Shown: positions 140-45,286 of the stretch, piece after piece | Numbering within the stretch: the stretch's first letter is position 1 | How the letters are laid out: each line of letters begins with the position of its first letter | From: Chitinispirillaceae bacterium | Lineage (GTDB): Bacteria > Fibrobacterota > Chitinivibrionia > Chitinivibrionales > Chitinispirillaceae | Assembly (NCBI GenBank): GCA_016929595.1 | Contig: JAFGIN010000105.1 | Coordinates: 1-45,670 of the forward strand | DNA: 45,670 nucleotides | Direction: 5' to 3' | The notes under the pieces: model-generated | The model's input: the letters and a program-made list of their open reading frames with translations, nothing else | Told to the model about the DNA's origin: nothing | Databases searched by the model: none | Program-made: the position numbers and the translations under genes

Positions 140-825
140 TATAGTTCCACAGCACTCTTCTTATAATCCATATACTTCTCTTCAGAAAACAACATAATCA
201 TTGTACTGAGGTCCGGACGCGGATTGAGGGATGAATTTACTTCGGTAAAACCGGTTGGAATTCCTTTGTATACCGCATCTAAAGATGGAGCATAATTCAT
301 ATCACCTTCTACCCTGTATAAGGTCAAAACTGTTTCAAAAGCAATTCCAGTATCGGCAGATATGTCATAACATACCTTGATCCTGCTTAAAATTGTATTG
401 AGTCTCTGCAACTGAGCCAGAACATTTGCAGTCTTTTTTGCGTCTGTCGAGAAATCTCCCGGTAATTTTGTACCTCGCAATAATTGTGTAGCTTCAAGAC
501 AACCGTCTGTTGAACTGGCATATTCAATATTGATATGCCACCAATAATATTTGGGTTTATTATTGGGAACACCATCAATCGATTCCCCGGCACCATTCTC
601 CATTTCATCGTGACAATCTTTTACATTTTCCAGGTTCTTTATAATTCCTCTGGATTCCAGAAATGAGCAGATTTTCTTTACTTCTCCTGTAAAAGACTCG
701 ATTTTGCATTCCCTCTCCCTTTCTGTTAAAGAGTTCAGGTCATTCGCAATACTGTTTTCAGTTGGAATATAAGAGTCGGCTTTTTCATCGGGTGTTATAT
801 AAACCGGTTCGTTTTTCTTTTCCAC
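136..825 (-). CDS. Hypothetical protein, fourth gene of the M23 cassette
   Basis: This encodes 229 residues from a GTG start at 825, with an AAGGG purine stretch a few bases upstream. There is no signal peptide or membrane segment, so it is probably cytoplasmic. The N-terminal 50 residues are highly charged; the rest is mixed alpha/beta with a KYYWWHINIEY stretch near residue 92. It lies 23 bases downstream of the lipoprotein gene on the same strand, so it belongs to the operon that starts at 4055. No family was recognised. It ends in SAVELY at a TGA, and a frame just beside that stop stays open to the window edge, so a frameshift is possible. Given its place after an M23-like gene and a lipoprotein gene, a cassette accessory role is only inference. 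Confidence 0.6.
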   Translation of the reverse strand: MEKKNEPVYITPDEKADSYIPTENSIANDLNSLTERERECKIESFTGEVKKICSFLESRGIIKNLENVKDCHDEMENGAGESIDGVPNNKPKYYWWHINIEYASSTDGCLEATQLLRGTKLPGDFSTDAKKTANVLAQLQRLNTILSRIKVCYDISADTGIAFETVLTLYRVEGDMNYAPSLDAVYKGIPTGFTEVNSSLNPRPDLSTMIMLFSEEKYMDYKKSAVELY

Positions 826-848
826 AGGGATCCCTTTTCGATTATGTG

Positions 849-1541
849 CTAATTGTCCTTATTTGCAGCAAAGAAAATCAAGTCTGTTCGTTTAATAGTA
901 TCGCAGCAAATATAACTTGAGTCTGTTGTTATTTGACCAAACCAGCGTTTTTTTACACCTTCAAGTGCAATCGAATTTTCTAATTTGTCTTTGTTTTCTT
1001 CAAATAATTCCTTTGGAAACCAGTAACAGAGCCTGAAGGGTATCGGATTACCAGATGAGCATATACATTTACCAATTTTATGCTTGTATGTCATACTTGA
1101 ATCTGGTTCAAGTTGATCTACCCAGAATGAGCGAAAAGCTGAAACATACCCACCTCCCGTAAATCTCTTTTTTGCAGAATCTGAAACAACAAAAAGTACA
1201 AACGCCAGCGTTTTCGTCCCCTGATTACCATAATGATATGGCGGGATATAAATAATTTTTTCTTTTGATACATTCGTAAAAGTCATTTTCAGGTAAACAT
1301 TAGTGTCTACAATAAATTCTCCTGTAAACTTAAGTCCATTGCTGGTACCAGATACCGGCGTACATATACTAATGTCAAATTGAATATCTTCCAATGATTC
1401 GTTTAGGTTTTGACTGTTCTCATTCAGATTTCCGCTCTTATACAGTGAACTACCATTATCAGTTTTTTTCTGACATGACAAAAAAAACATCATCCAGATA
1501 ATCACAAAAAATGATACTTTTTGATTGATTAAAATTATCAT
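849..1541 (-). CDS. Putative lipoprotein, possible immunity protein of the M23 cassette
   Basis: This is a 230-residue exported protein. The N-terminus has a hydrophobic segment (residues 8-22) ending FFLSC then QKKTDN, a plausible lipoprotein cleavage site at Cys23. The mature part is beta-rich and includes DTNVYLKMTFTNVSKEKI, which resembles an Ig-like or DUF-type sandwich. Its ATG overlaps the stop of the M23-like gene upstream in an ATGA junction (1538-1541), so translation of the two is likely coupled. A periplasm-facing lipoprotein coupled to a peptidoglycan-targeting effector is the usual layout of an immunity gene, but that role is inferred from position only. No named family was recognised. 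Confidence 0.65.
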   Translation of the reverse strand: MIILINQKVSFFVIIWMMFFLSCQKKTDNGSSLYKSGNLNENSQNLNESLEDIQFDISICTPVSGTSNGLKFTGEFIVDTNVYLKMTFTNVSKEKIIYIPPYHYGNQGTKTLAFVLFVVSDSAKKRFTGGGYVSAFRSFWVDQLEPDSSMTYKHKIGKCICSSGNPIPFRLCYWFPKELFEENKDKLENSIALEGVKKRWFGQITTDSSYICCDTIKRTDLIFFAANKDN

Positions 1542-3280
1542 TTTAATTTCTTTTTCGTATTATTAAAAACTTTTCTGTAATACTCATTTAATACCAGATA
1601 TCTTGAAACATTTCCCCTGTGCTCAACCCAGGCGGGCCATGTTAAAATGTCACATGTTTCAATATAATTTGTAAACAATTCAATATTCGCACCATTGCAA
1701 AGCCATGAGCGTATTTGAGATTCATTGTCAAGTGCAATTTGAACCATACGTTCTTTATTCAAACCTTTAATTTTACTTTTTAAATCGTTAATAATTGATG
1801 ATAATGCCGAAGTCTCAAGAGACTGCTTGAGGCCTTTAAACGACTCACACTTGCATGAATATACCATACCAGAAAGAATTAAAGGATAAATATTTTCTGG
1901 TTGATGCCCGGCATGATATATCAGATATTGAAATGATTCTCTAAACTGTTTGTTATACAAAGGGTGACTTGTATCGATGTACGGAAAAAAGACTCTCATA
2001 TATTTGTATTTCTCAAGCAGAATCACCGCTTCCCTGAGTATTATAAAGTTAAATTTTTCCGGATCAAGAATATTTACCGCTATCGCTGAAGATGTAGCGG
2101 TTTTTGAATTAACCTCCTCTATCTTGATACAATCCATCAAATCCTGCCATCGAGCTTCAGCTGCATCTGGAGTATCAGCAGATTTTCCTATAGCTTGCCA
2201 GTTCTCATTTGACCATTGCCCAAAAGTATTTTTTAAGGGGCCTCCCAACCTCCCGACCTGATCCAGCCCCCCAATCTGGACAAACCACTGTTTGATTGCC
2301 CACTCTTTAAGCTCTTTTTCACGTAAGAAATACTGTTCGATAAGATGAACAGGATTATAATGCCAGACCTTTTTACTTGAAGGCAAGGTGACCCTGGCAT
2401 TTTTTGCTTCATCCCAGAAATTGTATGGTTTAATAGCCTCAGGTGAAGCTTTCTTATGTAATCTACTTTCAATGGTCTTACACACGATGTCCCAGTTTAC
2501 AGCATTTTCATTTATAAAAAAGCACGCATAATCTCTGAACGTTGTTGCCTGCGGATTATTTTTGTAAAAGTCGGTTATCTCATCCTCACTCCAGTTTTTA
2601 TCCTTGTTTTTATCAATAATATTACCAAGAATCACAGCAATGTAGCTGTTGTCACAATTGATATTGTCATCATGATCCTCCCTTGTTGTCCAATTGCCCG
2701 GCAGAATTTCCTGTGAAAAAACACCCCAGTGAAACATGGGTGCCCGGTAATTTTTTATAACTGTTTTGGAACCATATACACCGACTGTCCAGATGACATC
2801 TCCAGCCTTAACAGCCCTGTCTATTTTGCAGACTTCCCCCTTTTTTAAATTTTCACATAGTTTTATATCTATTTCGCCGTTAACCCACAACCACGAGAAA
2901 TCTCCCAAAACCGGGTTCGAACTTTCCAGAGATTCGCAATTCAAGTGCTGATAAAGACTGTAATAAACTGTAGATTTCAAAGTATGCTTTACAAGAATAA
3001 AATTATTGCTCCCGTAATGTTTTATTGCAACCCCTTCTTCACCAAGACGGGCTGCAACAATCACCCCATCAGCCATGCAATGAATTTTCTCTCCTTGTGG
3101 GGCATGGATATGAATCCCACCATGCCATATAGTATTTGATCCAAGAGGAAAATATCCACCTTTATAATCCTTCTCAACATGCACATGATATTTTTCAAGA
3201 AGTTTTTCTGATGGTAATAATCCGGCAGGTATTTTATTCTGGTTATCTCCAAAATTTTCTACAGGTAAAACAAAGTTCAT
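1538..3280 (-). CDS. M23-like (LytM/lysostaphin fold) protein, candidate secreted effector
   Basis: The protein has 580 residues, an ATG at 3280 and a GGGAG site 8 bases upstream. It has no signal peptide. Residues about 45-190 read as an M23 peptidase domain: WHGGIHIHAPQGEKIHCMADG, KHTLKSTVYYSLYQHL and APMFHWGVF line up with the family's HxxxD, YxH and HxH blocks. Two key positions differ: the Asp of HxxxD is His57, and the first His of HxH is Met182, while His53, His112 and His184 remain. It may bind metal differently or be inactive. A later segment contains KKVWHYNPVHLIEQ (about residues 310-325), a motif I associate with M23-containing type VI effectors. Lack of an export signal plus the Ig-like-domain gene 28 bases upstream fits secretion by a contractile system (inference). 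Confidence 0.7.
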   Translation of the reverse strand: MNFVLPVENFGDNQNKIPAGLLPSEKLLEKYHVHVEKDYKGGYFPLGSNTIWHGGIHIHAPQGEKIHCMADGVIVAARLGEEGVAIKHYGSNNFILVKHTLKSTVYYSLYQHLNCESLESSNPVLGDFSWLWVNGEIDIKLCENLKKGEVCKIDRAVKAGDVIWTVGVYGSKTVIKNYRAPMFHWGVFSQEILPGNWTTREDHDDNINCDNSYIAVILGNIIDKNKDKNWSEDEITDFYKNNPQATTFRDYACFFINENAVNWDIVCKTIESRLHKKASPEAIKPYNFWDEAKNARVTLPSSKKVWHYNPVHLIEQYFLREKELKEWAIKQWFVQIGGLDQVGRLGGPLKNTFGQWSNENWQAIGKSADTPDAAEARWQDLMDCIKIEEVNSKTATSSAIAVNILDPEKFNFIILREAVILLEKYKYMRVFFPYIDTSHPLYNKQFRESFQYLIYHAGHQPENIYPLILSGMVYSCKCESFKGLKQSLETSALSSIINDLKSKIKGLNKERMVQIALDNESQIRSWLCNGANIELFTNYIETCDILTWPAWVEHRGNVSRYLVLNEYYRKVFNNTKKKLK

Positions 3281-3308
3281 TCAATCACTCCCGCTGAATA
3301 TCCTTAAA

Positions 3309-4055
3309 CTATATAGAAAATTGAAACGCATCTGAAAAAACAACCGGTATCTCGCACCGCTCACTCGCCTTACTCTTTACAATCCCCTCAAACGCCAGCT
3401 TCGACTCTTCACCTTTTCCACTCTTATCCGTAACCACCCACTCACCCCTGCCAACACCATTTTCGATTTTCCCCTTAGCAGTAGCAACACACATAGGCGG
3501 ATCTTCCGCGACATCGTAAATATCAAAAGTGACTCCGACACCTTCAGGTATACCAGTAACATCAACGATAAGAATGATCGTATCACCAAAAGATGCGCTA
3601 TCTGCAGATTTCTCAACCTCAGCCTTTTTTTCAGCCTCTTTCTTATGTTCCCACCGAGGATTGGCAACTGTTACCGGGCCGCTCACCACCTCAAGATCGT
3701 CAGTGAGACACACCTCTTCTGCAGCCTCCTCATCCTTACCGAAAGGAAAACTCATGGTATAATGAGCAGTTGACATCATTTTTCTTATATGGGGATCCCG
3801 AAGCGCATTATAGGGATATTGAAGAGGCATGATAATGCCATCATCAACAAGTTTTTTCAAAAAAGCGATTCGACCCCGGCGATCATCATACCGCTGACAG
3901 AACTTATTAATATTGTAGTTCATCGCCTCGACCGGAGTCAGTGAAGACATCACCTGCATCGTCAACATGATCAGTTTGTGCAGCGGAAGATCTATGAGAT
4001 AATTGTATACCTTACCGAAGTCACTTTCTGTAAATGGACAATTTAATGGATTCAT
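3309..4055 (-). CDS. Protein with C-terminal Ig-like domain shared with the Hcp-like protein at 34058
   Basis: The protein has 248 residues, with an ATG at 4055 and a GAGAGG site upstream. Residues 1-115 are an unrecognised helical domain. From about residue 131 it contains NPRWEHKKEAEKK followed by a beta-sandwich-like domain: FGDTIILIVDVTGIPEGVGV, then EWVV and CEIPV. The same pattern (NPCWAH, EGDTVKLTVDINGMQEGEAV, EWIV, CNIPI) forms the C-terminus of the 381-residue protein at 34058-35203, so the two share a homologous module. It is the first gene of a minus-strand operon and lies 28 bases before the M23-like gene. I infer an adaptor or carrier for that protein. It has no export signal. 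The exact function is unknown. Confidence 0.6.
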   Translation of the reverse strand: MNPLNCPFTESDFGKVYNYLIDLPLHKLIMLTMQVMSSLTPVEAMNYNINKFCQRYDDRRGRIAFLKKLVDDGIIMPLQYPYNALRDPHIRKMMSTAHYTMSFPFGKDEEAAEEVCLTDDLEVVSGPVTVANPRWEHKKEAEKKAEVEKSADSASFGDTIILIVDVTGIPEGVGVTFDIYDVAEDPPMCVATAKGKIENGVGRGEWVVTDKSGKGEESKLAFEGIVKSKASERCEIPVVFSDAFQFSI

Positions 4056-4389: not shown

Positions 4390-4854
4390 TTAGAAAAACG
4401 TAAACAAATATTTCTCATCATATTCAATCCCAAATTTTTCCAGTAACATGATATACTCCTGCTTAAATGTTGATTTTTTGTGGTGCTCTTCTTGATTCTT
4501 AATGTATCGAAACACATCTTCAACTTGAGAACGACTGTAAGTAAATGCACCATACCCTTCTTGCCAGGAGAATTTCCCATAAAACCACTTTTTATCATTA
4601 ATAAATGATGATGAACTTTTTTTAATAGTACCTACTAAGTCTGAAATGCTTTGAGTATGGTGTAATCCTAAGAAAATATGAATATGGTCCTCTACACCAT
4701 TAACGATAATTGACTTGTTTTTAAGATTGGTAATTGTTCCACTTATGTATTTGAAAATTTGTTCATTAAATTCGCTATTCCGCAATAAACACTGTTTATT
4801 TGCCACTGCGAAAACAATTTGCACATACAACTTTGTATAAACACCTGGCTTCAT
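4390..4854 (-). CDS. IS200-like Y1 transposase of the REP-associated (RAYT) type
   Basis: The protein has 154 residues from the ATG at 4854. The frame extends 26 codons further upstream, but the conserved protein starts at MKPGVYTKLYVQIVFAVAN, with a GGAGGGG site about 10 bases before it. HUH-type features are visible: VNGVEDHIHIFLGL carries the His-x-His metal pair, and QEGYGAFTYSRSQVEDVFRYI contains the tyrosine region and helix of Y1 (TnpA) transposases. The C-terminal YIKNQEEHHKKSTFKQEY is typical of the family. Length matches single-domain IS200/RAYT proteins. Similar hairpins lie on each side in opposite orientation, and there is no partner TnpB, so a domesticated REP-mobilising RAYT is more likely than a full IS605 element. 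It appears intact. Confidence 0.88.
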   Translation of the reverse strand: MKPGVYTKLYVQIVFAVANKQCLLRNSEFNEQIFKYISGTITNLKNKSIIVNGVEDHIHIFLGLHHTQSISDLVGTIKKSSSSFINDKKWFYGKFSWQEGYGAFTYSRSQVEDVFRYIKNQEEHHKKSTFKQEYIMLLEKFGIEYDEKYLFTFF

Positions 4855-4861
4855 ATAATGA

Positions 4862-4876
4862 TTCCCCTCCAGGGAA
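4862..4876 (-). repeat. REP-like hairpin upstream of the RAYT gene
   Basis: Read on the minus strand it is TTCCC-TGGAG-GGGAA, a 5-bp stem with GGAG in the loop. It is followed by TCATTATATG, so the repeat also supplies the purine-rich ribosome site of the transposase. It is an inverted copy of the hairpin at 4346-4360 (one mismatch in 15). Confidence 0.55.
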
Positions 4877-4917
4877 TAAGAGGATTTTGGGATGCGCTCT
4901 TTACTACAATAGTTAAA

Positions 4918-4930
4918 GGGCCTACAGCCC
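4918..4930 (-). repeat. Second upstream hairpin with TGTAG loop
   Basis: On the minus strand this reads GGGC-TGTAG-GCCC, a 4-bp stem and the same TGTAG loop as the 4346 hairpin. It lies about 55 bases upstream of the transposase start, in the same orientation as the 4862 hairpin. It may be part of one REP unit with it. Confidence 0.4.
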
Positions 4931-4958
4931 ATTTTTGTAATAAAATCTCGGCTTAGAT

Positions 4959-22339: not shown

Positions 22340-22704
22340 CTGGTAGCATTGCCGAAACCCAATCATGAGTCACCAATAATCCCTACAGTTCTATTAATTT
22401 TTCAGTTTTTCAGGTTTTTCACCCGACACTAAAATTCTCAATCTCAGTGATTTCCTTTAAATTATCTGGCGATAAAATTGCAATTATTTTAAACCTGAAT
22501 CAGACAATTTTTTACAACAGTTACACAAGATGTTGAGTAGGGATGACATGTAAATAACGCAGATAATCTCTGAATATGATGAACATTTTTGTCACCTGAA
22601 TCATTGTGTGAAAGAGCAATTCTCCAGTTCAGGATTAAGTACCTGAAAAGGCAATTCACCCTGGAAAATTCCTGAAATTATTGGTATCTCAAAAAGGCAA
22701 AACG
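22340..22704. other. Upstream region of the curli export genes
   Basis: 365 bases without a gene. It contains the AAACCTGAATC motif at 22491-22509 and a shorter ACCTGAATC at about 22595. It should hold the promoter of csgE-csgF-csgG. No CsgD-type regulator gene lies here. Confidence 0.55.
22491..22509 (+). promoter_or_regulatory. AAACCTGAATC motif upstream of csgE
   Basis: AAACCTGAATCAGACAATT, 17 of 19 identical to the copy at 23175-23193 before csgF. A shorter ACCTGAATC occurs near 22595. It is a candidate operator for the curli genes; no known regulator site was recognised. Confidence 0.35.
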
Positions 22705-23157
22705 GTGAAAACCCCTGTAATAATAGTAAGTGCTATGTGTGTTCTTTTTAAGCCATCGATTACTAATGCAGAAACTCTCAATCGGCTTAACGAAATTTTA
22801 AACGAGATCACAATAAATAATTGTGAACGATCTCAAAAATCGGCTATGCATACTGAAAGTAATGTACTTATTATTAACAACACCAAAACTACTAAGGGTC
22901 AACTCTTTTACAACTGGTTTTATGCTAACTGGAATACTACTGAACATCATACCGATTATTTTCTCACAATACAAGAAAAAGTAGTATCCCGCCAGCGCAG
23001 TATGCTCTCTATTGCTATTGATGAGTATAGCATCAGCACTTTTTTTTTAAATGAAAAAGATATCGATTTTGATAACATTGGACGTGAGCAGATAGAAACA
23101 GTACGATATTTTTTGAAGCACCCGGAATCGATGTACAATCATATTTACAAAGATTAA
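22705..23157 (+). CDS. csgE: CsgE-like curli export accessory protein
   Basis: The protein has 150 residues from a GTG at 22705 (AAAAAGGC upstream); the TTG at 22681 lacks a site. A signal peptide (VIIVSAMCVLFKPSITNA) is followed by a linker. The core LIINNTKTTKGQLFYNWFYANW, then DYFLTIQEKVVSRQRSMLSIA and STFFLNEKD, matches CsgE in order and spacing (E. coli TVSSIGHDFYRAFSDKW, NLTINERPSARWGS). CsgE is a periplasmic cap of the CsgG channel that steers curlin subunits. Its place just before csgF and csgG supports the call. The overall identity is low. Confidence 0.8.
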   Translation: MKTPVIIVSAMCVLFKPSITNAETLNRLNEILNEITINNCERSQKSAMHTESNVLIINNTKTTKGQLFYNWFYANWNTTEHHTDYFLTIQEKVVSRQRSMLSIAIDEYSISTFFLNEKDIDFDNIGREQIETVRYFLKHPESMYNHIYKD

Positions 23158-23174
23158 AGATACTAAATAATAAC

Positions 23175-23193
23175 AAACCTGAATCGGATAATT
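23175..23193 (+). promoter_or_regulatory. AAACCTGAATC motif upstream of csgF
   Basis: AAACCTGAATCGGATAATT, 18 bases after the csgE stop and about 117 before csgF. It is the second copy of the motif at 22491-22509 (two differences). Confidence 0.35.
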
Positions 23194-23309
23194 GTTTTAC
23201 GAGATCTGTTTCAAGGAAGGAATTAACATAAGGTGCTATAGCTGGCAACTGGTCTCTACGCCCGAAAGTCAGGTTAAGCAATAATTTTACCAAAAGAAAG
23301 GGTAGTATT

Positions 23310-23744
23310 ATGAGAAGAGAACTGGTATTCGTTTTTTTGTTTTTGATAATGTTATTTAATGTTAAAGCTTCTGAACTTTTTTACGTTCCCACAAATCCTT
23401 CATTTGGAGGTAACCCTAATAATGCAGCATGGCTGATGAATTCCGCTGTTAGTCAGAATGAAATAACCGATATGGACAATAAGGACGTCTTCAATCGCGA
23501 TCCCCTCCAGGAATTCAAGGAGAATCTCAACAGGCAAATTCTAAGCAGATTTTCAAGTGAGATTGTGCAGGCTGCATTTGGGGATAGTCAGGATGATCTG
23601 AAAGAGGGTACCTATCAGATTGGTGACTTTGTTGTCGATGTCAGGCCGTTGAATAGTAATATACGAGTAGTGATAACCGATAATGGAACCGGGAACCAGA
23701 CTGTAATAGAGGTGCCGTACTATGAATCAACTAAAGTTGAATAA
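23310..23744 (+). CDS. csgF: CsgF-like curli assembly protein
   Basis: The protein has 144 residues, ATG at 23310 with AAAGGG upstream. A signal peptide (FVFLFLIMLFNVKA) precedes ELFYVPTNPSFGGNPNNAAWLMNSA, the best-conserved CsgF block (PxFGGNPxN), then FKENLNRQILSRFSSEI and FVVDVRPLNSNIRVVITD. CsgF caps the outside of the CsgG pore and positions the nucleator. Its last 23 bases overlap csgG. The internal block DDLKEGTYQIGDFVVDV is also family-like. Confidence 0.93.
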   Translation: MRRELVFVFLFLIMLFNVKASELFYVPTNPSFGGNPNNAAWLMNSAVSQNEITDMDNKDVFNRDPLQEFKENLNRQILSRFSSEIVQAAFGDSQDDLKEGTYQIGDFVVDVRPLNSNIRVVITDNGTGNQTVIEVPYYESTKVE

Positions 23745-25122
23745 AAGGATAGTTTGGTTAACAGGCTACTACATTTTGATAATGAATTCATTACTAATCG
23801 CAAAAAATTCAATATTTAAGGCGACCATTGGATATACAACAGCGATACATGAGGAATTGAGATCGTTACCACCACCGCAATCACCTATCGTAGTAGCGGT
23901 TTATGAGTTTAGAGATCAGACTGGACAGTATAAAACAGGTGCATTCGGACAATCCTGGTCCACGACTGTAACTCAAGGCGCTACTTCAATGCTGATTAAA
24001 GCGCTTGAGGATTCTAAATGGTTCATAAATGTAGAACGCGAGGGTCTTTCCGATTTGTTAAATGAGCGAAAAATTATTTCTGCATCTCGTGAAATTCAGG
24101 CCAAAAGAGATGGAGAACAACCGGTTCCGTTGCTCCCATTGCTTTATGCCGGGATAATTCTGGAGGGAGGGATTATTTCTTATGAGACCAATTTAATCTC
24201 CTCCGGATTAGGAGTCAGATATTTCGGGCTTGGAGGTAGTGCAAAATTACAGCATGATCGTGTGACTGTCTATTTGCGGGCTGTTTCAAGTCAGACAGGA
24301 CAGATAATCAAAACTGTACATGCATCGAAAAATATTTTTTCAAAGCAAATAGAGGGCGGCCTTTATCGTTTTGTAAGGTTTAAGAAATTATTGGAAGTTG
24401 AAGCTGGTATTTCCACAAATGAGCCAGTGCAAATGTGTGTATTGGAAGCAATTGAAAAAGCTGTTCTCTCTTTAATTATTGAAGGTTTGATAGATAAAAC
24501 ATGGTTCCTTTTACATAAAGAGGATATGAATTCAACGGTTATAAAGGAATATTTTAAAGAAACGGAAAAAGAAAGTGCTTTTGAAAGTGCCCCTATCGCT
24601 CTGTTTAATAATAAACAGTTACACTATAGTCAACTTACAGGTACCCAGTTAACTGGAGAGGAAGGTCATCGGAACATTCACCTAATGGTAAAGAGCCAAC
24701 TCCAGTATGACTTTAATCCATTTATTTCATGTATTTTTGGGATTGGCGTTGGAAAAATATCTGGAAATTTAGCAAGGGATGGATTAGGGATTATTGTCGA
24801 TTTGAAAACATCAGTGGATTTTTTACCCCAACGCCAGATTTCTCCCTGTGTAAATAGTGGTGTTGGTATGATTAAATCATGGGTTACAAATCCAAATTCA
24901 TTAAAAGATCAAAAATACCCCTTGGGGATTGTACCTGCGTTTGTTTGGGGATGTGGAGTACGTTATTCTATCAATAAAATGAACAAAGTACTTTTTACCA
25001 TAGAAAACTATATCAGTACAGATGATATTGATGGGTTGAGCAGCAAAATTGATTCAGATAAAATAGTTGCTTTTTCGTTAGGTTTATCCGCAGCATTAAC
25101 AGGTAGAAATAAAATAAAATGA
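23722..25122 (+). CDS. csgG: CsgG curli channel, with extra C-terminal domain
   Basis: The protein has 466 residues; E. coli CsgG has about 277. The ATG lies inside csgF. The CsgG domain (about 30-280) is clear: VAVYEFRDQTGQYK, TSMLIKALEDSKWF, REGLSDLLNERKII, ILEGGIISYETNLISSG, GVRYFGLG, SSQTGQIIKTVHASK, STNEPVQMCVLEAIEKAV. It forms the outer-membrane pore for curlin export. Two odd points: the N-terminus has no lipobox Cys, unlike E. coli, and about 185 extra residues (from 285) are beta-rich with GIGVGKISGN and CGVRYSINK, like a small outer-membrane barrel. The constriction-region residues also differ (SW where E. coli has NF). Confidence 0.95.
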   Translation: MNQLKLNKRIVWLTGYYILIMNSLLIAKNSIFKATIGYTTAIHEELRSLPPPQSPIVVAVYEFRDQTGQYKTGAFGQSWSTTVTQGATSMLIKALEDSKWFINVEREGLSDLLNERKIISASREIQAKRDGEQPVPLLPLLYAGIILEGGIISYETNLISSGLGVRYFGLGGSAKLQHDRVTVYLRAVSSQTGQIIKTVHASKNIFSKQIEGGLYRFVRFKKLLEVEAGISTNEPVQMCVLEAIEKAVLSLIIEGLIDKTWFLLHKEDMNSTVIKEYFKETEKESAFESAPIALFNNKQLHYSQLTGTQLTGEEGHRNIHLMVKSQLQYDFNPFISCIFGIGVGKISGNLARDGLGIIVDLKTSVDFLPQRQISPCVNSGVGMIKSWVTNPNSLKDQKYPLGIVPAFVWGCGVRYSINKMNKVLFTIENYISTDDIDGLSSKIDSDKIVAFSLGLSAALTGRNKIK

Positions 25123-25257
25123 GGACATATCTATACAATTTCTGAAACAAGGTCATATTATTGTGAGAAAGCCGTTGTGTTCATACCGACAATACATGTA
25201 CCACACCAGAACGATCACTTCCTCACACTACCCTGCACATTATACCCATGAGCTGTT

Positions 25258-25845
25258 CTATCTGCCATTGATCACATTCATTCTCATCCCGTTACCATCC
25301 TGGGTAATCCGGTATCCAAGGCCACCCTGGCTATTTTCCACACGATAAATCTGATTATCAGAACCATATTGCATAATACAACTGGAGATGTCGTCTCCTG
25401 TAACGATCTGGACTGATTTGTTGTTTTGTCCAAATTGTCCAAGCAAGGTAAGATTCCGGTCACCATCTGTTTTTTGCTTTCCACTGTTATTATTTCCACA
25501 TTGCAGGAGTATGTTTACATTGTCATTTCCTGATTGTTCAATAACAGCACTATTTGCAGATCCGTCCTGAACAATGCAGGCATTGTTGGCCCCCTGTTTC
25601 TCAATTAAGTCAGTCTGTACAATTTTAGCGTAATGGCTATCGCCGTTCTGTAGTATTGACGCAAGTGTTTTTTCCGGAGTCTTTTTTCTTTTGTATAGTT
25701 CGGCAGCAAGCCTGTCCATCACTATCACATTTTCATACTCAATACTATGCAGGTAATCAGAGACTACCTCGCATTTATCGGATGCATGAGTATCTGCCAT
25801 TCGACAGAACATAAGAAGTACCAGACAATACACTTCTGATTTCAT
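25258..25845 (-). CDS. csgB: Curlin-repeat protein, CsgB-like
   Basis: The protein has 195 residues from the ATG at 25845, 10 bases behind AAGGAG. A signal peptide (SEVYCLVLLMFCRMADTHA) is followed by a 50-residue non-repeat part and then about six curlin-type repeats rich in Gln, Asn and Gly: CIVQDGSANSAVIEQSGND, LLGQFGQNNKSVQ, CIMQYGSDNQIYRV, YRITQDGNGMRMN. It lies second after the larger curlin gene with a 93-base gap, and convergent to csgG. The lower repeat regularity and the extra N-terminal part suggest the minor or nucleating subunit, but which is nucleator is inferred. Confidence 0.82.
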   Translation of the reverse strand: MKSEVYCLVLLMFCRMADTHASDKCEVVSDYLHSIEYENVIVMDRLAAELYKRKKTPEKTLASILQNGDSHYAKIVQTDLIEKQGANNACIVQDGSANSAVIEQSGNDNVNILLQCGNNNSGKQKTDGDRNLTLLGQFGQNNKSVQIVTGDDISSCIMQYGSDNQIYRVENSQGGLGYRITQDGNGMRMNVINGR

Positions 25846-25938
25846 AGGTTCCATTCTCCTTATTATGTCCTTGAAAGTCAAACCTTAAATAGCGCTCTGT
25901 TTTCAAAAAACAGAGCACAGAATTTGAGTTCTATCTCA

Positions 25939-26889
25939 TCAATAAACCACACCCTGTGTTACGCTTGCAAAGTTATATAATCCGTTTTGTACTACATAGC
26001 TTTCATCATGATTAGCACCACTCGTTTGCAATTGTTCAGCGCGATTATAAGAACCGTTCTGACAGATCTCCGCTCTACTGCTTGGCAATATATTATAGCC
26101 CTGGCGTTGAGTTGCCTGATTATATTCACCATTCTGACATATTTTTGCACTATTATTATCTGAGCCATAATTCTGGTCTTGTTGTGCTGAGTTATATTGG
26201 CCATTCTGAAATATCCTGGCCGAGTTATTATAGGAATCTTCCCATTGGTCTTGACTTGCCTCATTATGTCCACCATTCTGACATATTGTTGCACAATTAT
26301 AATCTGATTGTAATTCCTGAGATTGATCTGCAACGTTTTGTTTACCATTCTGGGAGATGTCCTCTCTACTTTCACGGACACCTTCAATCTGGTCCTGACT
26401 CGCACTATTTTGATAACCATTCTGACATATCTTTACAATACTGTTAAGGGTTCCTTTATGTTGTTCCTGCATAGCTTCGTTTTTAATTCCTGTTTGGAAG
26501 ATATCTGACCTGTTATCATAGGAAAAAAAAGTCTGAGATTGTTGTGCCTGATTATACCTGTTTTCCTGTACTATTTTCCCATTATTATTACCACCCCCCT
26601 CCTGGATTTGTATAGCGGTATTGAAACACCCATTTTGCTTTATGTAAGCGTCATTGTGTATCCCTACTTGATCGTCACTATACATCTCATCAACCGTCTG
26701 GTTTTGCTTTGCGCTGTTATAATTTCCTTTTTGAACTATTTCTGCACTATTATACGCTACATTGTTCTGCACTTGTACAGCGGAATCACCGATTCCGCAC
26801 TGTTGTATTTTTGAATAATTATTTCCTGCTTCAAAGGCTGTTGAAGAAGCAACCAGTAATGAGATGCTAATTCCATGTAAAAATTTCAT
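25939..26889 (-). CDS. csgA: Major curlin-like amyloid subunit with about 12 repeats
   Basis: The protein has 316 residues from the ATG at 26889 with GGAAAGGA 6 bases upstream. A signal peptide ends SSTAFEAG. Nearly the whole mature chain is 12 repeats of 23-25 residues with the pattern xIxQNGxxNxAxQxQ, e.g. RIFQNGQYNSAQQDQ and KICQNGEYNQATQRQ. That is the curlin (CsgA) strand-loop-strand pattern of amyloid beta-solenoids. E. coli CsgA has 5 repeats and no Cys; here Cys recurs at the same repeat position in four repeats (ICQNG), and nearby in three more. It is secreted through CsgG and forms extracellular fibres. It is transcribed away from the C1 protease gene and precedes the CsgB-like gene. 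Confidence 0.93.
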   Translation of the reverse strand: MKFLHGISISLLVASSTAFEAGNNYSKIQQCGIGDSAVQVQNNVAYNSAEIVQKGNYNSAKQNQTVDEMYSDDQVGIHNDAYIKQNGCFNTAIQIQEGGGNNNGKIVQENRYNQAQQSQTFFSYDNRSDIFQTGIKNEAMQEQHKGTLNSIVKICQNGYQNSASQDQIEGVRESREDISQNGKQNVADQSQELQSDYNCATICQNGGHNEASQDQWEDSYNNSARIFQNGQYNSAQQDQNYGSDNNSAKICQNGEYNQATQRQGYNILPSSRAEICQNGSYNRAEQLQTSGANHDESYVVQNGLYNFASVTQGVVY

Positions 26890-27286
26890 CCTAAGTCCTT
26901 TCCACACATCAGTTAGCTTATGAATCTATAAATTAAGAATTGCTGAGCGGTAATTCAGCTGAAATGTCTTTTTCCAGTTTTCCAGTTTTCCTGCTTTCAG
27001 TGAGCAAAGCAACGATATACCAGGGTTCCATGTTTCTTTGATAACATCCAGATTCAAATGCAATATCACAGCCAAATAGCCGAAAGGCCTTAGATTTAAA
27101 CGTTTTATATATATTTTGTTTATTTTTTAAACGCTAAACTTTTTTCGCTCAAAAATATCTTTTCTGCAGTATTTTTTCTTAAGGGATTCAAGCGGACATT
27201 TCCGGAGAGTTATTCGGTTACTTTGCGGATTATGAAGTCAAATCGCAAAATTTTTATAAAAACGAAAGTATTCAAAAGGAGTATCC
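26890..27286. other. Divergent promoter region between csgA and the C1 protease gene
   Basis: 397 bases without a gene. It is AT-rich around 27100-27135 (ATATATATTTTG). It should hold two outward promoters. The ribosome site AAAAGGAG lies just before the ATG at 27287. Confidence 0.55.
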
Positions 27287-34057: not shown

Positions 34058-35203
34058 ATGCCTTATCCAGCTTACGCCCGTTTCAAATACAAGGGAAATG
34101 TTTTCAGTTCACCACTTTCTTTATGCGGTGAGGATAACCTTTTCGAGATTCTCGAATATGAACATGCTATCGGCGGCAAACATGATACTGGCTACCTGTT
34201 TTCATATAAATGGGATGTATTTCATACGCCTGTCCGCTTTGTAATGAATGTACATGACATTCTACCAGATATGTACAAATTGCACGCAGAATGTTCCAGG
34301 AATTTTTTTGAAGAGGTAGAGATTTTCTGGTTACATTATGATCCGGCAAAATCGAAAGACGAAATATATTTCAAGCATACACTTTATCCTGTTAAGGTCT
34401 GTAAAGTAAGACAATGCTATCCAAATGTGAAATCTCCGGAGTTTGAACATCTTGGTCATCTTGTCGAAATTGAACTGCGTTACCGCTTTATAACAGCACT
34501 TTTTATTAAAGGATATCTGGAAAGCGGTAAACATGAATGGCAACTGTTTCTTACCGAACTTTCCACTGTAACCTACCGCCTTGATGATGCAGCACGAGAA
34601 AAACTACTCACCTGCCCAACTGATGCCGATGGTATCGATGAATTTGTTGAAAAGTATAAAGATGACACAAAAAATATACGTTTAACCAATCCATGCTGGG
34701 CACATACCGATACAAAAAAACAAGAGGACACGCCTGAATACGCTGCAGAAGGTGATACTGTTAAATTAACGGTTGATATAAATGGTATGCAGGAAGGTGA
34801 AGCGGTCAATTTTAAAATTTTAGACAAGAATTCCAAAGATCAGCAATGTATCGGTTTTGTAAAAAGCACCCATTCCGGTGGAAAAAGTACTGCTGAATGG
34901 ATTGTTGATTTAGGTACAGTTGAAAATAAGGATGATTTCGCTATTGCATTTAACGCTGAGGGGCACACTGTTTTATCATCAGATTGTAATATTCCTATTA
35001 ACAATAATGAACTCTGGGCACTTATTGTTAGTGACGATGATACTCCTGCTCATGGCGCAAATTTTCTGGTTTTTAAAAACAGTTCTGCAGAACTCGAAAT
35101 AGTGATGAATAATAAAGCTGATAAAGATGGACAAGTTTGTCTTCCTTTTACAAATATAGCTGCTCATAATATTGTTTTTATTGGTGGAGATGTAGATGGC
35201 TGA
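34058..35203 (+). CDS. Hcp-like (TssD) protein with C-terminal Ig-like domain
   Basis: The protein has 381 residues, with no signal peptide. The first about 165 residues fit the Hcp tube-protein plan: YARFKYKGNVFSS, then FVMNVHDILPDMYKLHAECS, EEVEIFWLHYDP, EIYFKHTLYPVKVCKVRQC and VEIELRYRFI (compare D..TP.L..ACSSG, AKLTIRK, YLIITLKEVLVSS, VTLNFAQV). From about 215 the shared NPCWAH plus Ig-like module (EGDTVKLTVDINGMQEGEAV, EWIV, CNIPI) follows; it is homologous to the tail of the 3309-4055 protein. A further about 65 residues end it. Its last 8 bases overlap the next gene, so they are coupled. A tube-linked carrier of the next protein is inferred; homology to Hcp is not proven. Confidence 0.6.
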   Translation: MPYPAYARFKYKGNVFSSPLSLCGEDNLFEILEYEHAIGGKHDTGYLFSYKWDVFHTPVRFVMNVHDILPDMYKLHAECSRNFFEEVEIFWLHYDPAKSKDEIYFKHTLYPVKVCKVRQCYPNVKSPEFEHLGHLVEIELRYRFITALFIKGYLESGKHEWQLFLTELSTVTYRLDDAAREKLLTCPTDADGIDEFVEKYKDDTKNIRLTNPCWAHTDTKKQEDTPEYAAEGDTVKLTVDINGMQEGEAVNFKILDKNSKDQQCIGFVKSTHSGGKSTAEWIVDLGTVENKDDFAIAFNAEGHTVLSSDCNIPINNNELWALIVSDDDTPAHGANFLVFKNSSAELEIVMNNKADKDGQVCLPFTNIAAHNIVFIGGDVDG

Positions 35204-38200
35204 AAGAATTATTAAAAAATTTGTTCTGCAAAATGGTATTCCGGAGTTAACTGAGGCGTATTGGTCGTATAGCGAAATGCCACTACTGACGAATGAAACA
35301 CAGGGCAGTGTTCTTCCTTTTTACGGGCCTGCAAACGAGAAAAATAAACGCGACCTTTACTGTCATTTCCGTGTAAAAGATCTTTTTTTTCTAAGTGCGA
35401 CATATGCCACAGGAATAGTTCCAAAAGTACACTTAAATGATGAAGGAGAACTACAGAGGTGGATTTATAAGGCTAAAAAAGACTCCACCACAGGTACAGC
35501 TTTACCAGCTACACAGTTTGTATTGGATCTTTTTACCTTCAAACCGGGCGACAAACAAAAAATGTTCACCAAAGATCTTGAAGAATCACAAAAAACCGTC
35601 GAATCCCGGGTTACAGATTTTGCAGATTTAACCATTGATATTGAACCACTGGGTAAAGTTGTCTTTGATGAAAATTACAACGGCCAATACCCCGAAGGAG
35701 AAGTCAATCCGGATAAGGTTGTGGATGGAAATCCGAAATTTGTACTTCAGTTTGCCGGTAAATCACTTACAAGATATATCCAGCTAAAAATAAAAAGAAT
35801 TATCAGTTCCTTTAATAAGCCACTCTGGGATATCTGTTTCAAACTTGAGCTAACCGATGAATTTGAGAATCTGTTCATTGAAAAAGGTGATGAACACGAA
35901 GCAATATTTGCATGGTCATGGGTAGTTAACTGGTCAACATGGAACCAGTATAAAAACATTTTCGGTATTGACATTACAAAAAAGGAAGACAGGCTTTCCC
36001 ATCTCAAAAAGCCTCATGAAAATGTTATTACAAAGAAAAAATATGCTCCAATAGTTAGAATCCCCGGTTTTGCAGCAAATGCGTTTCGCAATGTACGGAA
36101 AGTTGAAGAAATGGTGATCAACCTGTATAATGAATCACCATTTGTTAAAGAAGGTAAAGCTTTTGAAGGTACATTACTTGGAGATGTTGCTGCCAGCCGT
36201 GAAGAATATGAAAAAGCTTACGGCAGCAATGATATTACACTCCCGGACCCGTTCCCCTTTGATGAACCGTTCCAGAATTTTATTGTTTTTCGCCGGGAAC
36301 TACCGATCTCCAACATATATCTTGGAGTAGATATCGCTTATCCTATTGGTATTTGTGAACCTGTAGGGAAAGATTTACAGTGGTTTAATTCCTTCTCATT
36401 TTTAAATAAGGAAAATTACGGTGAACATTTTGCATGGCTGGATAAATTTCTTCTGCAGGGAGGAACTGCGGATTGCTGGTTAAAATCTATCGAGCAGAAT
36501 AATGTCCAGAATGCAAATTTCAGTGAATATTGTAATAAACCGATTGTACGCAAAGATTTTCCTTTTGATCCAATAGTTCAGGTTCCCTTCCGCTGCATAG
36601 ATCTTATGATTGCCGGTATTAAAGGTGAATACAAGGATATCATAAAAACCGGGTTGTTTTGCCCTGTCCCTGTTGAAAAAATAAGCTATCTCTGGATACT
36701 CGAAGACGAAGCACTCGAATGTTTTCAACTTAAAGATGATGGTGCAGAAGAAAAAACAGATTCTGTAAAAGGGATGCTTTATAAGGGTTTTCATGTTGAT
36801 GACAAAAAATACCGTTTTACCGGTGTGTGCCATAATAAGGTGCAGGTTCGTGGACGCAAAGGGTACTGGCAGGCACACTCTGTGTGTCAGCGACCGCTGT
36901 ATCTTATGGTAAATGTAGTACGGGATCTGTCTGAGGATGAAATGAAACGATACAATGCAAATCCAATGGTGCTGCATTTTCAGGCAAGGGATACAGAAAT
37001 TGGAAAGACCTTTCTGTTCAATAAACCACTTAAACTTGAACACACACTTAAAACGGGTGTGCATCTTTTTGTATTGTATCCACAATTTGCAGGTGATTTA
37101 TCAGATGAAACGGTGTATTCGTGTACAATAAGTGCTCCGGCCACACTGATACCCATTCACAATAATTTTACCGATAATCCCGACTGCAGAACAATCAGTA
37201 AAGGAATGCCAACAATATACCGTGCAAGGAACTGGGATCGATTTCTGGCCTTTAAAATGGCACAGATTAAGGAACACTCAAGTTTTACCCCTGTTGAGCA
37301 TGGTTTGTTTAAAGATAATCCTTTACTGCTTGTTGATGATGTCCGCCCTGCTGAAGCAATCGCAGACGCACGAAAGAAAGCTGTACAGGAATTCTATAAG
37401 GATATTGAACTGGGAATGGGAAGTTTTGTAGCTTCATATGCTTTTGCGGACAGTGATGTTGGTGATCTTTATGATCTTTTCAGGAAAGGTGAAGCAGGAG
37501 AAAAACAGGCAACAGCACTTAAAGCAATCAAAGCATTGCTGACATCAAGTAAAATGATCGGGTCAGAAATAATAGAAAAATGGATAGTCCGCATTGGTAT
37601 TAAGGAAACCGTAATCAACCGTGTCCTTGTTGTAGGTGTTTTTTTAGAAAAGATTCGTGAAGCAGCAAAAACTTTTGACGCAAAAATTAAAAATATCGAG
37701 CATCCATTTATGGATACCGTTGATTTCGGATTATCCCCTGATCATTTTGACAGTATGTATATGCTCGCAGCAACAGAAATAAAACGAATTCTGGACACAA
37801 AAACAGGGAAATATGCGGTTTCCCACGATAAGAGTAAACATCTTGGTGTTACCCTTCTCAACAGGTTTATCGATATTGGGCAAGGTGCACCCTTTAACTT
37901 TCAAATGGATAAGAATAGCGGGTTTGTGGAACGACCAGTAAATCTTGCGAATGAACCGGACAGTGTTTCAATTTATCGTATCGGTTTTCAGAAAAATATT
38001 GTGAAAATGGTGCAGGCAATTCGAAACGTTCAGTCTGCTGCAGGTAATAAAATGGGCAACTATTATGATGCTCTCATGAATGGGAATGCCTTTGATCAGA
38101 TATTTTCGAAAACAGGAAACAATCTCAATCCACAATTCCAGTTTTCTGCAGATAAAGAAAAAGCACTGCTCAAAAAAGCATTTTCAAGTCCGCAATCGCT

Positions 38201-38471
38201 CTCTGTTGATGAGATTGCCGGAGCAATTAGTATTTTAAAGTTTTTGAATTATGTTGATGCATCATTTGCGACTTGTCCGAAATGCGGGGCGATTATGAAA
38301 CCGTCTTGGGGGTGGTGTCCGTATCATGGGACGAGAGAGAAGATAGACCTGGAGGATACAAATTTTGATAGTAATTTTGCAAAAGAGTTTTTTGATAAAT
38401 ATGGTGACTACACTTTAAAAATGCTGCGGACAGAAAATTTAGCTGTACATTGGACTGAATTCATAATTTAG
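35196..38471 (+). CDS. Unknown 1091-residue protein with C-terminal zinc ribbon, candidate effector
   Basis: The ATG (35196) overlaps the Hcp-like gene's stop. There is no signal peptide or membrane helix. Most of the protein matches no family I know. The first about 750 residues are beta-rich and end near SKGMPTIYRARNWDRFLAFKM; a helical region (about 760-860) follows. Near the end (about 1027-1044) lies CPKCGAIMKPSWGWCPYHG, a Cx2C-x10-Cx2H zinc-ribbon-like set. Size, lack of export signal and tight coupling to an Hcp-like carrier gene suggest cargo of a contractile system. The exported protein gene 14 bases downstream would then be its immunity gene. Both roles are inference. Confidence 0.65.
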   Translation: MAERIIKKFVLQNGIPELTEAYWSYSEMPLLTNETQGSVLPFYGPANEKNKRDLYCHFRVKDLFFLSATYATGIVPKVHLNDEGELQRWIYKAKKDSTTGTALPATQFVLDLFTFKPGDKQKMFTKDLEESQKTVESRVTDFADLTIDIEPLGKVVFDENYNGQYPEGEVNPDKVVDGNPKFVLQFAGKSLTRYIQLKIKRIISSFNKPLWDICFKLELTDEFENLFIEKGDEHEAIFAWSWVVNWSTWNQYKNIFGIDITKKEDRLSHLKKPHENVITKKKYAPIVRIPGFAANAFRNVRKVEEMVINLYNESPFVKEGKAFEGTLLGDVAASREEYEKAYGSNDITLPDPFPFDEPFQNFIVFRRELPISNIYLGVDIAYPIGICEPVGKDLQWFNSFSFLNKENYGEHFAWLDKFLLQGGTADCWLKSIEQNNVQNANFSEYCNKPIVRKDFPFDPIVQVPFRCIDLMIAGIKGEYKDIIKTGLFCPVPVEKISYLWILEDEALECFQLKDDGAEEKTDSVKGMLYKGFHVDDKKYRFTGVCHNKVQVRGRKGYWQAHSVCQRPLYLMVNVVRDLSEDEMKRYNANPMVLHFQARDTEIGKTFLFNKPLKLEHTLKTGVHLFVLYPQFAGDLSDETVYSCTISAPATLIPIHNNFTDNPDCRTISKGMPTIYRARNWDRFLAFKMAQIKEHSSFTPVEHGLFKDNPLLLVDDVRPAEAIADARKKAVQEFYKDIELGMGSFVASYAFADSDVGDLYDLFRKGEAGEKQATALKAIKALLTSSKMIGSEIIEKWIVRIGIKETVINRVLVVGVFLEKIREAAKTFDAKIKNIEHPFMDTVDFGLSPDHFDSMYMLAATEIKRILDTKTGKYAVSHDKSKHLGVTLLNRFIDIGQGAPFNFQMDKNSGFVERPVNLANEPDSVSIYRIGFQKNIVKMVQAIRNVQSAAGNKMGNYYDALMNGNAFDQIFSKTGNNLNPQFQFSADKEKALLKKAFSSPQSLSVDEIAGAISILKFLNYVDASFATCPKCGAIMKPSWGWCPYHGTREKIDLEDTNFDSNFAKEFFDKYGDYTLKMLRTENLAVHWTEFII

Positions 38472-38484
38472 GTTGGGATATAGT

Positions 38485-39327
38485 ATGTTCAAAAATGTGC
38501 TAACAATCATATTACTTGCAAACTGCTTTGTCCATTGCAGTTCCTGCCCAAACAATGCATTGTTAGATAGCCTTTTTTCTGATAGGTTTGCTGAAAAATT
38601 TCGAGAGGATGAAGTTATATCAATTTTGACAACATTAACAGAGAAGGGCTGTAAAAAAAATGATTCAGCGATAGCAGAATTTGTTATAAACAATTCATTA
38701 TATGGTCATTGGGGGATGCGGGTATTATCAAAGCATCATTCTACTTTTCTGCTCAAGTTGTTAAAAAAACACTCAAATGAACTTAAAAAACTACAATGGT
38801 CTTACTTCGCTAGTAGTCTTTCTGCTAGTCCTTGTTGGAACGATACTGAAATTGACAGTATTGTTGAAAAACAAGTGTATCAAAATCCAGACGTTGTTAC
38901 GCGGGATATGCTTTTACAATATCTATCCAAGTGCGCAAATATTACGATTTGTATAAATTTAGCCAAGATGTTTAGTATTGAACCTGAAAACATAGTTCGC
39001 AAACGTCATCTGATCCTTTACTGTAGATTCAATACTCCAGTTTTGAATAAAATCATTGTCAATGAGCTTAAAGCTAATCCATACAATTTCGAAAAGGTAT
39101 TAAGAATGGGGTTCAAAACCTACAACCGCTACGATTTCCTTCCTGAACTTTATGATATTAAAAACCGTTTTAAAAACGAAACAAGCCCTTTACGTAAATC
39201 AGAAGTAGAGGAAATATTAACAACTCTTGGAGATGTTATTCCGTATCTGGAAAAAAAGAAGTATGAAAAGGCGACAATCGGTTTGCCACTGGATTGGGGA
39301 ACAACTAATTCATTAGGAAAAGAATAG
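38485..39327 (+). CDS. Exported helical-repeat protein, candidate immunity protein
   Basis: The protein has 280 residues from the ATG at 38485 (a TTG at 38473 is possible). The N-terminus MFKNVLTIILLANCFVHCSSC is a signal peptide or lipoprotein signal. The mature chain is almost all helical, with repeated short hydrophobic helices (HEAT-like look): HSTFLLKLLKKHSNEL, RDMLLQYLSKCANITICINL, FEKVLRMGFKTYN. It would face the periplasm. It directly follows the 1091-residue gene, as immunity genes follow effectors. No family was recognised. Confidence 0.6.
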   Translation: MFKNVLTIILLANCFVHCSSCPNNALLDSLFSDRFAEKFREDEVISILTTLTEKGCKKNDSAIAEFVINNSLYGHWGMRVLSKHHSTFLLKLLKKHSNELKKLQWSYFASSLSASPCWNDTEIDSIVEKQVYQNPDVVTRDMLLQYLSKCANITICINLAKMFSIEPENIVRKRHLILYCRFNTPVLNKIIVNELKANPYNFEKVLRMGFKTYNRYDFLPELYDIKNRFKNETSPLRKSEVEEILTTLGDVIPYLEKKKYEKATIGLPLDWGTTNSLGKE

Positions 39328-44878: not shown

Positions 44879-45286
44879 CTAAGTAATATCAATAACGTAT
44901 CTTCCAGTACCAAGAAATGACAATTTATACCGGTATTTTCTTGCATCTTTAAGCTCCAGCAGCATTATGCAAAACAATACCGGCTGTTTCTCTTCAATAT
45001 TCCATTCAAGAAATTCAACACTTTTCACTGCCGGTTCAAATTTTATTATTAACTCTTCAATAGTTTTTGCATATTCATTGATATTCCCAGGTATTGCAGT
45101 ATGTATTGCCGGGAAATCTGGTAATCCATAATTTGTGCGTGTTACCATACTTCCTGCAAGTATATTAAATGTTCTCTGCAGGTAAAGTTGAATAGTTACC
45201 GCATCACGGAGGTTTTCTGAAAGATTTCCAACCGGTACGCCTTTGTACTCCGCTGGTGCTAACATTTCAAAAATGCGCAAGTGCAT
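44879..45286 (-). CDS. tssE: TssE / gp25-like baseplate protein
   Basis: The protein has 135 residues. The pattern ENLRDAVTIQLYLQRTFNIL, MVTRTNYGLPDF, INEYAKTIEELIIKFEPAVK and FCIMLLEL fits the GPW/gp25 family of phage and type VI baseplates (NYGLPDF and FEPxxxxV are the best marks). Length is normal for TssE. It would sit at the wedge of the contractile baseplate in the cytoplasm. No other core gene is in the window, and the start has a weak ribosome site. A phage or extracellular-injection-system homologue is possible. Confidence 0.75.
   Translation of the reverse strand: MHLRIFEMLAPAEYKGVPVGNLSENLRDAVTIQLYLQRTFNILAGSMVTRTNYGLPDFPAIHTAIPGNINEYAKTIEELIIKFEPAVKSVEFLEWNIEEKQPVLFCIMLLELKDARKYRYKLSFLGTGRYVIDIT

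Follow-up and report, generated by a model that had tools for sequence, protein, structure and literature searches.

What kind of system is encoded by three closely packed genes of a Chitinispirillaceae bacterium (GenBank assembly GCA_016929595.1)? The genes lie on contig JAFGIN010000105.1, of which 45,670 nucleotides were analysed; this whole stretch is referred to here as the window. All three are on the forward strand and encode proteins of 381 residues (34058-35203, 43.4 kDa), 1091 residues (35196-38471, 124.7 kDa) and 284 residues (38473-39327). The first two open reading frames (ORFs) share 8 bases and the third begins 1 base past the stop of the second, with a TTG start; an in-frame ATG at 38485 is the likelier start. 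An earlier sequence-only reading had described genes that overlap or nearly touch, in the order of a carrier, an effector and an immunity gene of a type VI secretion system (T6SS). The layout is as it described, and the proposed order is backed by the co-occurrence of the three genes in other genomes. We consider it quite probable that the cassette is a T6SS carrier, effector and immunity set used against rival bacteria, with a carrier tail that would hold the cargo, an effector with a polymorphic tip and an immunity protein that would act in the periplasm.

Is the first protein an Hcp? Residues 1-165 (34058..34552, + strand) form an Hcp-like domain, with sequence homology to Hcp/TssD across the domain. 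Residues 18-157 match the solved Hcp 4hkh (phmmer against the PDB, E 2.2e-8), and a profile of seven related Hcp domains, the carrier's included (A11), finds 4hkh at E 5.7e-40 and 3he1 at E 4.9e-25, which bears out the Hcp-like identity first proposed. Against NCBIfam TIGR03344 the carrier scores E 1.6e-7 and 31.4 bits, under the cut-off of 58.9, and Pfam Hcp (PF05638) gave no match to it at E<=1. Because these cut-offs are missed, we call it an Hcp-like carrier and not a canonical TssD. Two Hcp paralogues in the same genome are over the PF05638 cut-off (contig C214, E 9.3e-17; contig C217, E 3.2e-6), and among homologues at other loci it is passed by that of L071 and missed by that of L072.

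In a search of 167 Fibrobacterota genomes, the Hcp profile matched 52, in 77 rows. The ORF is at least 300 residues long in 14 of the 77 (306-1048 residues), all of them in the window's own family, and six of these 14 have a tail match at the same place; the remaining rows are mostly about 160-190 residues. Three giant fusions are found among Hcp proteins: L071:360-2780 (806 residues; Hcp, tail and the amidohydrolase domain Amidohydro_2), L072:4250-7363 (1037 residues; Hcp, tail, OmpA and PG_binding) and L028:6171-8891 (906 residues; Hcp, OmpA and PG_binding). At L027:1033-3471 a long Hcp (381 residues) is followed by a 429-residue protein with long hydrophobic glycine-rich stretches and then by a membrane protein, a trio that on reading looks like a pore-former with its immunity protein.

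Behind the Hcp-like domain the carrier has a tail. Its immunoglobulin (Ig)-like domain, residues ~205-310 (34670..34987, + strand), is a predicted beta-sandwich with homologous adaptor genes in the genome. In the AlphaFold2 model of the carrier, residues ~211-290 are the usable part, with a predicted local distance difference test score (pLDDT) of 64-83; the best structural match there is the PECAM-1 Ig domain (Z 8.5, root-mean-square deviation 2.9, 83 aligned), and Foldseek and VIA both match it to Ig domains of diverse kinds. The Ig-like tail of the sequence-only reading is thus upheld for residues ~205-310. Two further structures were kept as leads only: 9jdh, the N-domain of a Bacteroides fragilis T6SS effector, which at Z 7.4 ties with complement proteins, and 8gra_J, a T6SS spike protein PAAR, which matches the Ig-like part and is the sole sequence match of the tail profile in the PDB at E<=10 (E 0.5). 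The carrier ends in a small beta domain, residues ~316-381 (35003..35200, + strand), that reads as transthyretin (TTR)-like.

The tail is not confined to this gene. Carrier residues ~207-372 match six further tails in the genome, on contigs C118, C117, C113, C194 and C160 and at window 3309-4055 on the minus strand. The N-terminus is Hcp in the window, L045, L071 and L072 (the ORFs of the last two run on for hundreds of residues), cysteine-rich in, for example, L025 and L030, and helical at window 3309-4055, L031 and L044. By these matches the tail is a reusable module on at least three kinds of N-terminus. The profiles used for co-occurrence contain many of the sequences that they find, a circularity that we countered with own-genome and single-sequence profiles; a tail profile built from this genome only recovers the foreign tails of L044 (7e-47), L045 (1e-29), L036 (5e-11) and L046 (2e-8). 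A TTR-looking end was read in all six tails beside effectors of the 1091-residue family (window, L045, L044, L025, L036 and L046), and in four other aligned tails it is absent or replaced by another end. We also searched with a profile of the TTR end (window and L045 only) among 441 collected ORFs, which come from loci chosen for holding a family member, a tail or T6SS genes and are not a random sample. Of the 439 others, only L044 (domain E 0.0011) and L025 (0.0012) matched; L036 and L046, both beside 1091-family effectors, were missed. CarboxypepD_reg matches one of ten tails (E 0.0016), and the TTR label is otherwise a reading of the sequence. The alternative tail end of L029, L030 and L064 is homologous to the C-terminus of a PAAR protein (phmmer domain E 2e-11, 9e-5 and 8e-21), a 501-residue double-PAAR protein of the same genome encoded one gene apart from a VgrG. 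By this homology the tail system is connected with the T6SS spike.

The cysteine-rich adaptor N-terminus (C-x2-C...GK..FVH-like) was seen in L025, L029, L030, L032, L064, L068-L070, L073, L075, L079, L081-L083. It matched no Pfam family in L070 and L079 and no PHROG in L025, and is possibly a docking domain. In L079, where the stretch also occurs, the sister tail gene is 1.1 kb from a VgrG gene.

Does the genome encode a system that could use such a carrier? By Pfam, contig C193 of the same genome holds TssA, B, C, Hcp, E, F, G, VgrG, K, L and M. Further genes are on three other contigs: C84 has a second set (Pfam identifies TssC, Hcp and TssA, and TssB was recognised by reading), C123 has a second TssF with ClpV (the latter by reading), and C203 has a second VgrG with PAAR. 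The putative cargo effector is therefore encoded in a T6SS-encoding genome, and the presence of contractile-system genes elsewhere in it, on which the sequence-only reading had staked its case, is established. Across the phylum, TssC is present in 50 of 167 genomes and tails in 21. The two coincide in 18 genomes, that is 18 of 21 with a tail and 18 of 50 with TssC (Fisher p 2e-8).

The three genes also keep company outside the window. A tail gene is 5' of six of the seven effector copies with a readable upstream side (window, C117, G018, G019, G004:C42 and G038:C738; in the last two it is cut by the contig end). An immunity homologue is 3' of six of the seven copies with a C-terminus (window, C146, the C88 fragment, G019, G004 and G038:C889), and in C146 and G038 it is divided between two ORFs. 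The seventh copy is a broken piece in G006. The effector gene thus adjoins a T6SS carrier or adaptor gene and an immunity-like gene. Locus L047, which has the C-terminal half of the effector behind a foreign N-terminus and no tail gene, was outside the tail count.

What, then, is the 1091-residue protein? The claim that it belongs to no recognised family stands: it had no match above cut-off in Pfam (only sub-threshold zinc-ribbon and His-Me matches, the His-Me finger at E 0.075), none in NCBIfam or in PHROGs (E<=0.01 for PHROGs), and no PDB chain at E<=10 by phmmer. PDB matches of the effector and immunity profiles were rejected, all being E 0.3 or worse. A literature search gave no published description of the family, judged by title, among the matches listed, and one pairing Chitinivibrionales with type VI secretion gave no paper. 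The protein founds a new putative effector family without a database name. Several members, the window's not clearly among them, have a hydrophobic helical stretch that may resemble the 'pre-toxin' motif known from polymorphic toxins. By a profile search of the phylum, the family is present in six of 167 Fibrobacterota genomes, five of which have TssC. Relatives with the effector include a Fibrobacter sp. metagenome-assembled genome (G019, contig JAAZBG010000252.1), of the same family as the window, and one from Chitinivibrionales (G038, contig WJJU01000151.1), an order of Fibrobacterota to which the window also belongs. The sixth genome, G006, has only a 74-position broken tip with a stop (L048:8649-8954) and no TssC or Hcp match, as if the cassette had decayed along with loss of the T6SS. 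Plasmids gave no tail or effector match at E<=0.1, and viral contigs gave no effector match in a search with the effector profile (A1), outside which the tail, carrier and immunity protein fell. A 17-residue match of the tip profile (A6) in one phage contig was rejected as chance.

The C-terminal tip of the effector, residues ~970-1091 (38103..38471, + strand), comprises a zinc ribbon, a variable stretch and a VHWTEF end. The ribbon, C-x2-C-x10-C-x2-H at residues 1027-1044 (38274..38327, + strand) with ligands C1027, C1030, C1041 and H1044, is invariant in all seven rows of alignment A6, and Zn_ribbon_3 matches six of the seven, each below its cut-off. Conserved tip residues are C-P-x-C, W-G-W-C-P-Y-H, T and V-H-W-T-x-F. 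The protein had been said to end in a zinc ribbon; the ribbon is present, but 47 more residues come after it, so the protein does not quite end there.

Exchange of the tip is suggested by one locus. In L046 the array opens with a full effector and its immunity gene; orphan tips, each paired with an immunity gene of its own, come next, and a degenerate tip closes it. Four tandem units of ~1.3 kb, each formed by the last ~90 effector residues and the downstream gene, were taken from the zinc-ribbon codons as far as the next tip. In the DNA alignment of the units, mean identity is 97-99% over columns 1-120, 41-67% over columns 121-960, 74% over columns 961-1020 and 93-100% over the last 300 columns. 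The conserved ends correspond to the zinc ribbon and the immunity C-terminus, and the diverged part to the rest of the tip and most of the immunity protein. Exchange of toxin tip and immunity gene by homologous recombination should leave such a trace, and the pattern looks like one of swapped toxin-tip and immunity modules. Orphan tips with paired immunity-like genes, a conserved junction and a diverged payload are the marks of a polymorphic toxin, and L046 has them all; such an array was found in this one genome only. The conserved junction of this apparently exchangeable tip is, by its position in the units, the zinc ribbon. Elsewhere in L046 (8210-9133), the final orphan tip passes into a tandem peptide repeat where the variable end is expected. 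An EF-hand-like aspartate loop was noticed by eye in some tips.

The third protein has a hydrophobic N-terminus by inspection, which in several homologues is followed by a lipoprotein-like Cys, in agreement with its description as exported; the homologues are possibly lipoproteins, and the window's protein may be one too. It had no Pfam match above cut-off, none in NCBIfam or PHROGs (E<=0.01 for PHROGs) and no credible PDB match. Its single-sequence profile picks out nine other proteins among the 441 collected ORFs, with E from 1e-35 to 2e-9, and each of the nine is encoded at a locus that holds an effector tip or a fragment of one. We regard it as founding a new putative immunity family. Might it be instead an accessory secreted or envelope factor, the large protein being aimed at eukaryotic predators or hosts? 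The lack of a Pfam family or credible PDB match would allow this, and neutralisation by the 284-residue protein is our supposition. The idea is improbable given the tandem tip and immunity units with divergent middles and conserved ends, the conserved pairing of the effector with the 284-residue protein, and the bacterial-wall hydrolase domains near sister tails described below. A truncated second copy of the immunity gene lies downstream of the first at L044:13918-14430 and is, by reading, nearly identical to part of it.

A number of results weigh against a T6SS cassette of this kind. The carrier is below the curated Hcp cut-offs of NCBIfam and Pfam. Its AlphaFold2 model, from an alignment that held no Hcp homologues, is without an Hcp fold: residues 1-205 are all below pLDDT 50, and no Hcp is among the best 50 Foldseek or VIA matches of a model in which only ~211-290 is usable. 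The helices modelled in the Hcp part were set aside as an artefact of that alignment. The model of the 1091-residue protein, made from three sequences, had a pLDDT of 31.6 and was discarded. Sequence searches of Pfam, NCBIfam, PDB and PHROGs gave no known toxin domain in the effector, and its tip is without a recognised toxin fold in such searches. In C146 the effector copy is missing its first ~119 profile positions and is not accompanied by a tail gene. Three genomes with a tail have no TssC match (G006, G027 and G032), and within the window's own family TssC is present in 10 of 11 genomes with a tail versus 10 of 13 without (p 0.36). Since this within-family association is not significant, the phylum-wide one is partly phylogeny. 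Genes after the own-genome tails of L029, L030, L031 and L032 have no Pfam match better than E 0.09, so that calling them effector-like rests on position. Lastly, at 124.7 kDa the effector is far over the 44.4 kDa of the largest known effector delivered by Hcp1 that PMC8262886 names.

Could the cassette then belong to another contractile or surface system, its Hcp likeness being a shared tube fold only? The Hcp scores below cut-off, together with a tail in only 18 of the 50 TssC-positive genomes, would suit this. We think it very improbable, as every match with an E better than 1e-6 is to a chain deposited under a T6SS Hcp name or family, in L079 a sister tail gene and a VgrG gene are 1.1 kb apart, and sister tails are linked to PAAR.

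How might a T6SS cassette of this design work? We infer the following as to binding, delivery, toxicity, compartment, target and recombination. The 381-residue protein would be a specialised Hcp that joins the tube or the tube end. Its Ig-like and TTR-like tail would hold the 1091-residue effector, probably by edge-strand pairing of the sort modelled for VgrG TTR domains. The effector would be a polymorphic toxin made up of a long constant region, a helical stretch, the zinc-ribbon junction and a short variable tip, which the exported 284-residue protein would neutralise in the producer periplasm. The toxin would most likely act in the periplasm or on the membrane, since the immunity protein reads as exported and lipoprotein-like. 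Tip and immunity would be swapped together, through recombination between two conserved stretches, the zinc ribbon and the end of the immunity gene.

Can so large a cargo travel with Hcp? PMC8262886 also states that a 30-kDa addition halted sheath assembly, and in another report cargo is enclosed by two rings (PMC13323088). A cargo of 125 kDa is presumably too large for such enclosure, and the Hcp-tail protein would therefore act at the tube end or as a cap, or pass its cargo on to the spike. The same cargo-loading question is raised by the phylum's long Hcp fusions (306-1048 residues). A tentative proposal, which we hold with less than even confidence, is that the Hcp-tail protein forms a dedicated ring or tube cap that carries the folded 125-kDa effector outside the lumen, that carriers are interchangeable, and that the last tail domain names the cargo class. 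Alternatively, the effector may ride an ordinary spike (PAAR or VgrG), with the 381-residue protein as an accessory or adaptor and not a cargo-carrying tube subunit. The non-Hcp N-termini on the same tail beside other family copies (L025 and L044), the C-terminal domain that the genome's PAAR has in common with sister tails, and the size argument (PMC8262886) all speak for a spike. The Hcp-tail form is nevertheless directly 5' of the effector in two genomes (window and L045), and in L071 and L072 it is part of longer, fused ORFs; we judge the spike route somewhat unlikely.

The window holds a second cassette, as a tail at 3309..4055 (minus strand), on a 248-residue adaptor with a helical non-Hcp N-terminus, sits before two further genes. 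These encode an M23-peptidase-like putative cargo effector (1538..3280, minus strand; PF01551 E 5.4e-6 and 26.9 bits, below the 28.7 cut-off) and, by position and by a hydrophobic N-terminus with a Cys on inspection, a lipoprotein-like candidate immunity protein (849..1541, minus strand). The cassette spans 136-4055 on the minus strand and also holds a 229-residue gene; an IS200-type transposase is upstream of it at 4390-4932. In a domain survey of ten proteins chosen from tail-bearing loci in relatives, matches over the Pfam cut-off included Amidase_2, VgrG3-like_C, M15, PLDc and Amidohydro_2 (fused to Hcp-tail), and M23 and Tlde1 matched below it; one protein had no match. At L030:7822-11634 a tail adaptor, a 787-residue protein with long hydrophobic stretches and a 198-residue membrane protein form, by reading, a candidate pore-forming cassette, in which no Pfam family was found.

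A gp25/TssE-like gene had also been noted near the three genes. The ORF at 44879-45286 (minus strand) does match PF04965, weakly and below cut-off (24.3 bits, cut-off 27.2), and is 31% identical across 39 residues to the TssE of the same genome; no contractile-system gene adjoins it in the window up to the contig end, and the T6SS clusters are on other contigs. For want of such a neighbour we set it apart from the cassette. Curli-type export genes CsgE, CsgF and CsgG, with a curlin-repeat protein, are at window 22681-26907.

How does the cassette compare with known systems? Hcp-ET of E. coli, an Hcp with extended-toxin domains at its C-terminus (Ma et al. 2017), likewise has an Hcp domain with a long C-terminal extension. 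There the toxin is fused to Hcp in one protein, whereas in the window the extension consists of Ig and TTR-like domains and a gene of its own encodes the toxin; L071 and L072 have fused forms. In PMC11796386 the Ig-like and LysM part of Tae17 interacts with the C-terminal region of VgrG17, and an AlphaFold2 model pairs edge strands in two contacts, of which one runs through the Tae17 Ig-like domain and the other through the VgrG17 TTR domain. The C-terminal TTR region by which VgrG tethers Tle1 or Tae17 (PMC11796386) is, like the window's, a small beta domain that ends a T6SS structural protein and is proposed to hold cognate cargo, and an Ig-like domain takes part in both. The window's tail differs in being on Hcp and free adaptors, with the Ig-like domain on the carrier side; we see in this a likeness and not a demonstrated homology. 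In Vibrio cholerae, T6SS immunity-gene arrays arise as each incoming effector-immunity module takes the place of an older one, whose immunity gene stays behind (PMC5361080), whereas the repeat unit of L046 also has a toxin tip and is bounded by conserved zinc-ribbon sequence. The polymorphic toxins of contact-dependent inhibition (CDI) and Rhs systems (PMC3482391) likewise combine a constant delivery region, an exchangeable C-terminal module and downstream immunity; unlike them, the 1091-residue family is without a known toxin domain by Pfam, NCBIfam and PDB sequence search and has an Hcp-tail or adaptor carrier.

What does this mean for the Fibrobacterota? The cassette adds two putative families, one of effectors that has no database name and one of immunity proteins, as well as a tail module that in this phylum is a marker of effector-like cassettes. 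By sequence comparison this kit recurs with exchangeable parts in related bacteria. The tandem tip units offer apparent effector-immunity exchange with defined junctions, and the modular carriers make the loading of large cargo on Hcp directly testable. If our tentative proposal is true, carriage of a 125-kDa cargo outside the lumen would overturn the size limit reported for Hcp delivery, and these Fibrobacterota would possess a plug-in loading code, with one Ig and TTR tail joined to N-termini of several kinds (Hcp, cysteine-rich and helical).

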